Notes under the pieces: model-generated
The model's database searches: none
Seen by the model: only the letters and a program-made list of their open reading frames with translations
Told to the model about the DNA's origin: nothing
Assembly: GCA_026745465.1 (NCBI GenBank)
Contig: JACYXH010000134.1
Coordinates: 124,001 to 188,000, forward strand
Source: Lota lota
Lineage: Eukaryota > Chordata > Actinopteri > Gadiformes > Lotidae
DNA: 64,000 nucleotides
Direction: 5' to 3'
Position numbers and translations under genes: made by a program
Shown here: positions 33,207-34,825 of the stretch, in pieces
Position numbering within the stretch: position 1 is the first letter of the stretch
Layout of the letters: every line of letters starts with the position of its first letter

Positions 33207-34468
33207 GTACCCCCCCCCTCTACGGACGCCTCCAGGCGGACGCACAGGGTGAGAAGGGTGCTGGCGGTGGAAGTCCTTGACGAGGGAGGGGTCCAGGATG
33301 CGGCTTCGAGGAACCCAGGAGCGCTCCTCTGGGCCATACCCCTCCCAGTCGACCAGATACTGGAACCCCCGGCCACGTCGACGCACGTCCAAGAGGCGAC
33401 GAACTGTCCAGGCGGGATGGTCATCAATCATTCGGGGGGGTGGTGGAGCTGGGGTGGGAGGCTACAGCGGGCTGGAGGAGACTGGCTTGAGCTGGGACAC
33501 GTGGAAAGTGGGATGAACACGGAGAGACGAGGGGAGTTTGAGACGGACGGCACAGGGGTTGACAATGGATTCGATAACAAAGGGACCGATGAAACGGGGA
33601 GAGAGCTTCTGCGACACCGCCTTAAGGGGAAGGTCCTTGGACCGCAGCTAAACTCTTTGTCCGGGGGTATATTGTGGAGCCGGGAGACTGTGTTTATTTG
33701 CTTGTCGCTTGGAGCGGGTAGATGCCTGGAGGAGTGCTGTGCGTGCACGCTTCCAAGTGCGCTGGCAACGACGGAGGTGTGCCTGGACGGAGGGGACCGA
33801 GATTTCTGTCTCAAGGGATGGGAAAAGGGGAGGCTGATACCCTAACGAGCACATGAAAGGGGACAAGCCTGTGGAAGCGTTCACCAGGGAGTTGTTGGCG
33901 TACTCAACCCCTGGGAGTTGAGTAGTGGGGGAGCGTTGGGAGAGGACAGCCCCCACGCCGGTGTCGGAGGAGTCGACCTCCACCACAAACTGGAGGGAGG
34001 GGTCGGGTTGGATCAGGATGGGAGCCGACACGAACAGTCTCTTGAGGGTCTCGAAGGTGGCCCCCGCCTCCGGTGTCCACAAGAAGGACCTCTTGGTGGA
34101 AGTCAAGGCCGTGAGGGGTGCCACAACTTGGCTGTACCCACAAATGAAGCGGTGATAGAAGTTGGCGAAGCCCAAAAGCTGTTGGAGCTTCTTGCAGGTG
34201 GAGGGAGTCGGCCACTCGGCCACCGCCAAAACCTTAGATGGGTCCATCCTAATCTCCCCCTGACCGATGATGTACCCCAGAAAGGAAGTAAACATAACGT
34301 GGAACTCACACTTCTCTACTTTGACGTAGAGCCTATTTTCCAATAGGCGCTGGAGGACCTGTCGTACGATCACAAGCTCCTCCAGTGACCCCGAGAAGAT
34401 GAGGATATCGTCCAAGTAAACAAAAACAGAATGATTCAGCATGTCGCGGAGGACATCGTTGACGATGT
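32666..34468 (-). mobile_element. pol: LTR retrotransposon 2 (gypsy, same family as element 1), heavily deleted
   Basis: The 3' LTR 32666-33206 (541 bases, TGTTATGG start, GTAACA end) is followed by a polypurine tract (33210-33222) and a remnant of pol. Chromodomain text lies at about 33250-33431. The integrase C-terminus continues to 33905 and is then fused directly to the RNase H start and the reverse transcriptase (YLDD retained). RNase H and most of integrase are deleted between these points. The 5' LTR, gag, protease and the first part of reverse transcriptase are missing: the element ends at about 34468 inside the E2b exon of LEC6. Confidence 0.85.
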
Positions 34469-34659
34469 CGATGTTGAGAAGAGCTTGGAGGACACAAAGC
34501 AGGCCGATGCTGAGATAAGCCAGGTGCAGGTGTCTTTCTGCAGTGAAACACACACAGGCTAGTTCATATTCAATTAATAAAAAAAACGAATACAGTTGAA
34601 TAACGATTGAGCAAAATCATTCAATTGTTCAATTAACAATTAACAATTGTTAAATCAAC

Positions 34660-34711
<52 letters not shown>

Positions 34712-34825
34712 CCTACTTGAGTTTGCGGTACAATCTGGCACAATCTCTTCAGTTTCATTCCTTGAATATGACTGATGTTTTCTGGTCTCGACGTGCATCT
34801 CAATCTCATCTGAGCGATGCGCCAT
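33648..34825 (-). other. LEC6: lectin B-module exons fused in frame to retrotransposon pol
   Basis: E1b 34717-34825 is intact (36 codons, donor GTAGGT, exit phase 1). E2b starts at 34537 after an intact ctgcag acceptor and encodes the membrane segment, but at about 34468 it passes into retrotransposon 2. The frame stays open through pol text (VNDVLRDML, then YLDDILIFSG, the RNase H start, then the integrase C-terminal part) to a stop at 33648-33650, where element 1 has a Trp codon. Spliced E1b plus E2b/pol would encode about 332 residues: a lectin cytoplasmic tail and membrane anchor followed by a partial reverse transcriptase. Neck and lectin exons are absent. It is either a chance in-frame deletion product or an expressed chimera; the sequence cannot decide. 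Confidence 0.55.
34661..34710 (-). repeat. (CAGA)n microsatellite, LEC6 E1b-E2b intron
   Basis: About 50 bases of CAGA units beside the E1b donor. Confidence 0.9.

Follow-up and report, generated by a model that had tools for sequence, protein, structure and literature searches.

Introduction

Fusions of host genes with transposable elements are a known kind of gene, exemplified by CSB-PGBD3 and by CGIN1, which we take to be the gene also named NYNRIN. Here we describe LEC6, a CD209-like C-type lectin copy whose membrane anchor runs in frame into the pol gene of a Ty3/Gypsy long terminal repeat (LTR) retrotransposon. It lies in a 64,000-nucleotide stretch of the burbot (Lota lota) genome (GCA_026745465.1, contig JACYXH010000134.1, positions 124,001 to 188,000 of the forward strand), which we refer to as the window and whose numbering is used throughout. 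We conclude that LEC6 is very probably a chimeric pseudogene, made by a deletion and in frame by chance, and not a domesticated gene.

As in described domesticated fusions, host and element coding sequences are joined in frame in LEC6. Two cases come close. CSB-PGBD3 joins host 5' exons in frame with a transposon coding sequence that serves as the 3' terminal exon (PMC2268245), an arrangement that LEC6 shares; in contrast, the LEC6 join lies within an exon and would be the product of a deletion, and LEC6 is known from sequence alone. CGIN1 combines a duplicated cellular gene with a part of retroviral pol (PMC3424704), as LEC6 does, whereas LEC6 is a single copy that carries parts of reverse transcriptase (RT), RNase H and the integrase end. 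A survey of proteins in which host and transposon domains co-occur lists RT and integrase among the domains that multicopy host families most often pair with, and finds most combinations in few taxa, which marks them as recent (PMC12062965). The members of that set are UniProt proteins, whereas LEC6 matches none of the database proteins listed in our searches; the word 'lectin' is absent from the main text of the survey. No report of a lectin-pol fusion was found in the literature that we searched.

Results

LEC6 is encoded on the minus strand, as are all of its parts described below. The coding part of its first exon, E1b (34717-34825), begins with an ATG at 34825, encodes the cytoplasmic tail MAHRSD...TANS and ends in phase 1 at 34717 with the donor CAA/GTAGGT; the exon is also present in the burbot protein P0122 and the hake protein P0132. 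The intron (34538-34716, GTAGGT...TGCAG) contains an expanded GTCT repeat, and the acceptor, TTTCACTGCAG, is followed by exon E2b from 34537 onward. The host part of E2b (34470-34537) encodes KRH and the transmembrane stretch LHLAYLSIGLLCVLQALLNI. The same NS/KRHL join occurs in P0122 and P0132 (both 'unnamed protein product' entries), which makes E1b-E2b a credible exon pair. E1b, its donor and the E2b acceptor are intact, as the initial annotation of this locus had stated, and the phase-1 join opens a single frame of 332 amino acids that ends with a TAG at 33650-33648. LEC6 retains a CD209-like cytoplasmic tail and membrane span, the latter with a hydropathy of 1.89 in its best 19-residue window compared with 2.01 in the neighboring copy LEC5. 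Among the five other copies, LECb continues E2b with TEGQ after the residues ALLNI and the remaining four with TLRVSWN; in LEC6, the host sequence ends at 34470. The neck and sugar-binding exons are gone: Pfam finds no Lectin_C domain in the fused frame, and the minus strand from 34463 to LEC5 shows neither a WLGL motif nor a neck motif.

The remainder of the frame is Ty3/Gypsy pol (33648-34463). It starts within RT at VNDVLRDML, passes through the catalytic motif YLDD and the start of RNase H, crosses an internal deletion, and ends with a C-terminal part of integrase and the TAG. The pol part amounts to 271 codons, in agreement with the roughly 270 open codons, YLDD among them, first reported for it. 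To call this piece a retrotransposon RT, as was done initially, is accurate as to the YLDD motif but overstates the content of the piece. The Pfam RVT_1 match is limited to positions 133-205 of 205, followed by the RNase H start, the deletion and the integrase end, and alignment to Ty3 RT begins only at residue 202 of 478. The palm and fingers are incomplete, and the first catalytic Asp in the LDL motif, presumably RT motif A, is missing. An RT that lacks the front of its palm is not expected to have polymerase activity, so none is expected of LEC6.

Relative to the other element used for comparison (element 1), the internal deletion runs in frame from RNase H into the C-terminal part of integrase. 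Removal of this segment by splicing was rejected, as its left boundary in element 1 lacks a GT. We observe that the proteins P0001, P0002, P0021 and P0115 also lack a middle part of pol, located between the beginning of RNase H and the C-terminal region of integrase, with varying edges (compare LEC6 33940-33920, minus strand). Recurrent loss of this region may reflect a hotspot of template switching or repair, non-autonomous element forms, or an effect of gene models.

Beyond the TAG, pol continues through 33207-33647. It remains free of frameshifts to 33215 and contains a further in-frame stop at 33464-33462. The 3' LTR of the same element follows directly (32666-33206, TGTTACG...CATAACA), in sense orientation to LEC6 and with an AATAAA at 32740. 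This 3' LTR and the partial pol are all of the element that remains next to LEC6, instead of two LTRs, gag and a full pol. On the far side of the LTR lie about 90 bases that match no paralog in the window, and then DNA paralogous to lectin upstream regions, which extends to LEC5.

The fusion point, originally placed near 34468, is indeed an in-frame junction and can be refined slightly: host sequence ends at 34470, pol starts at 34463, and the 6-nucleotide filler GACATC between them (34464-34469) supplies the codons Asp-Ile. The filler matches, in inverted orientation, a GATGTC in pol a few bases away, and together with the pol flank it forms 8-nucleotide arms, GACATCGT-CA-ACGATGTC. Host and pol share no homology at the junction beyond a few bases. 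With these features the LEC6 junction looks like a repaired deletion. Inverted inserts copied from the flank are described as a minor product of polymerase theta end joining (PMC5068794). The deletion-insertions in that report resemble LEC6 in combining a deletion with a short flank-copied insert, inverted in the snap-back cases; they form a large experimental allele set, whereas LEC6 offers one junction.

From these features we infer the following order of events. LEC6 would have begun as an ordinary CD209-like type II C-type lectin copy with a Ty3/Gypsy element inside or downstream of it in the same orientation. A break may then have removed everything from lectin codon 59, at the end of the membrane span, to the part of pol just ahead of YLDD: on the lectin side the exons for the neck and the sugar-binding domain, and on the element side its 5' LTR, gag, protease and the larger part of RT. 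Repair presumably joined the two ends with the 6-nucleotide filler, templated in inverted orientation by nearby pol, a reaction of which alternative end joining by polymerase theta is capable. Retention of the frame would have been a matter of luck, with a chance of one in three, and pol would be open since it had formerly been a working gene.

Of the three frames that could have crossed the junction, that of pol is open for 270 codons and the other two close after 8 and 42. The fused frame is long because it is the pol frame, so agreement of the frames is no more than chance would give. When sequences were evolved neutrally in simulation, 75, 57 and 26 percent of them remained free of nonsense codons at 1, 2 and 5 percent divergence, and the chance of no frameshift, under an assumed rate of 0.1 frameshift per substitution, was 45, 20 and 2 percent. 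The open frame is thus compatible with neutrality if the fusion is young; if it is old, selection would be needed.

Comparison of LEC6 pol with element 1, which had been suggested as a check, gives low dN/dS ahead of the stop (0.074 over 178 codons and 0.028 over 91 codons) and similarly low values past it (0.111 over 61 codons and 0.051 over 81 codons), with dS between 1.0 and 4.5 and hence saturated. Because pol past the stop is about as conserved as pol before it, the low ratio is inherited and predates the fusion. The check therefore lends no support to selection on the fusion, and we rejected Ka/Ks against element 1 as proof of it. Over 83 conserved positions of RT and RNase H, 5 residues of LEC6 and 2 of element 1 are deviant; among 110 other sequences, 82 have fewer deviations than LEC6 and 28 have at least as many (120 listed pol matches were tried, of which 109 aligned and 11 were left out for partial coverage). 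At the positions that distinguish LEC6 from element 1, the residue off the majority is that of LEC6 in 13 cases and that of element 1 in 5, and neither matches in 22. The excess on the side of LEC6 is a mild hint of relaxed constraint. In the host exons, LEC6 has 2 nonsynonymous and 1 synonymous private codon changes, and its sister copies 1-3 and 0-2, all of these very small numbers.

An AlphaFold model of the chimera has a mean pLDDT of 67.7. Confidence is high for residues 101-170 (83-98) and low for the membrane span and palm remnant (21-50; 53-62) and for the RNase H remnant (171-210; 50-56). The top match in the PDB is Ty3 RT, with a TM-score of 0.25 by query length, and other RTs listed reach up to 0.33. 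At this level of confidence the predicted structure would justify no description beyond 'fragment'. The pol part contains three N-glycosylation sequons.

A search with the fused exon returned 1557 pol relatives and one with the lectin model 315 matches. Among the best 120 of each, no protein combines lectin and pol. The proteins nearest to the lectin model among the matches listed are P0121 and P0122 (Lota lota, 'unnamed protein product'), neither of which is letter-identical to the window, and the host part alone matches only P0122 and P0132, both gadiform. The database searched contains few close gadiform relatives, so the absence of a relative of the fusion is weak evidence.

The DNA upstream of LEC6 is conserved over 0.86 kb (93 percent mean column identity with five other copies). 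It includes a TGAGTCA (34879-34885, minus strand) that ends 53 nucleotides before the ATG and that we take to be a putative AP-1 site; the same bases occur in five of the six copies, and LECb has TGAATCA. The assertion that a conserved AP-1-containing promoter remains thus holds for the region and the motif, but LEC6 also has gaps of 12, 23, 11 and 2 nucleotides and a 3-nucleotide insertion. The 12-nucleotide gap is private to LEC6 and deletes a CCAAT-containing stretch; LECb has a larger gap that overlaps two of the others. A solo LTR (35686-36312, minus strand) lies about 0.86 kb ahead of the ATG, bordered on both sides by the 5-bp target duplication GTGAC; it is related to the LTR on the downstream side of LEC6 but distinct from it.

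The downstream sense LTR brings a poly(A) signal, which makes a LEC6 transcript possible. Its start codon lies in a context that we assume to be good, and its stop codon would fall in the last exon. A second AATAAA at 33698 lies within the frame and, if used, would end the message ahead of the stop codon. In a scan of 32660-34900 with a donor matrix, a donor-like site in pol at 34310 scored 6.6, compared with 6.69 for the E1b donor; given these similar scores, other splice forms are possible.

Discussion

The inherited conservation of pol, the frame agreement expected by chance and the junction that resembles a repaired deletion are consistent with LEC6 as a chance chimeric pseudogene, as are the fragmentary predicted fold, the lack of a two-part protein among the matches listed and the damage to two of the five sister copies. 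If it is transcribed, as it may be, its product would be a membrane-anchored protein of 332 amino acids without a lectin domain and with only part of RT, most likely misfolded and degraded. Several observations weigh against this assessment. The match of the filler to its flank could be fortuitous: 94 of the 4096 possible 6-mers match either flank within 30 nucleotides in either orientation, a chance probability of 2 percent, and the ATC within it might belong to native pol instead of an insert. The pol part is free of frameshifts over about 1.25 kb, which under the assumed rate fits only a young fusion. Finally, the apparent transcription unit is unusually complete, with a start codon, a splice pair, a sense LTR poly(A) signal and a predicted last-exon stop, and in combination with the frameshift-free pol this leaves room for a real protein. 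The initial annotation had proposed that LEC6 could encode a type II membrane protein whose ectodomain derives from pol. The structure that this requires is present, down to the AATAAA of the sense LTR, and gives the proposal partial support, but such a protein is hypothetical. One could envision a new immune-type membrane gene at birth, in which a lectin promoter and anchor display a piece of RT on the cell surface after one deletion step and with a ready-made poly(A) signal, perhaps to interfere with or sense related retroelements; we consider this highly improbable. That such a protein is expressed and kept by selection for a role of this sort is equally far-fetched, even with an open 332-residue frame without frameshifts, an intact anchor, a largely conserved upstream region, a sense poly(A) signal and three sequons in its outer part. 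The conservation of pol is matched past the stop, no relative of the fusion is found among the matches listed, the predicted fold is fragmentary, and the codon changes in the host exons resemble those of sister copies, in numbers too small to decide.

Alternatively, LEC6 could function as an additional promoter and first exon of LEC5, the next copy downstream on the same strand (E1b at 30235-30343, minus strand, with E2b, neck and sugar-binding exons of its own). E1b would skip the pol exon and splice to the LEC5 E2b some 4.6 kb downstream, to yield a lectin that is normal except for minor differences in its tail. The intact E1b and its phase-1 donor, the phase-compatible LEC5 E2b with the same acceptor sequence, and the second donor-like site at 34310 are compatible with such splicing, but LEC6 has kept its own, nearer E2b acceptor and transcription would have to get past the LTR poly(A) signal; we regard this as unlikely. 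An assembly error, or a feature of a single haplotype, is a somewhat less probable source of the junction. Tandem paralogs and repeats are difficult to assemble, yet the filler resembles that of biological end joining, and at the junction host and pol share a few bases of homology at most. A chance chimeric pseudogene is thus the reading that we prefer.

If LEC6 is expressed, it would represent a young host-transposon fusion that has a membrane receptor as host partner and a birth scar that can still be read. If it is not, it provides a clean case of how LTR-rich tandem arrays of immune genes yield long, gene-like chimeric frames. In either event, comparison of Ka/Ks on the two sides of the first stop is a reusable control that should precede claims of domestication.

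Across the window, CD209-like C-type lectin genes form an array on both strands, which comprises six E1b-E2b copies, seven exons for a carbohydrate-recognition domain (CRD) of the WLGL type, and several exons for coiled necks. The exons that LEC6 retains are damaged in two of its five sister copies. In LEC7 (40036-40056, plus strand), codon 7 of E1b is a nonsense codon (GAG to TAG), and a normal start from the ATG of that exon is impossible; LECb (15012-15470, plus strand) has the E1b donor GTAGAT instead of GTAGGT and the altered E2b end TEGQLPK. Direct as well as inverted copies of lectin upstream regions are present at 31249-32574, 36313-38983 and 57448-58957; some carry long CA repeats, and they may promote rearrangement of the array.

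Ty3/Gypsy elements are dispersed across the array; in the burbot genome, LTR elements are reported to account for 38.04 percent of the sequence (PMC8650494). In one copy (18304-23658, minus strand) the two LTRs agree at 519 of 519 aligned positions, which marks it as a recent insertion, yet its pol has an in-frame stop close to the end. A second, gypsy-like type of element (43607-47449, minus strand), with long frames of 671 and 608 amino acids, sits between lectin-like exons near 42.1 kb and a CRD exon at 48.3 kb.
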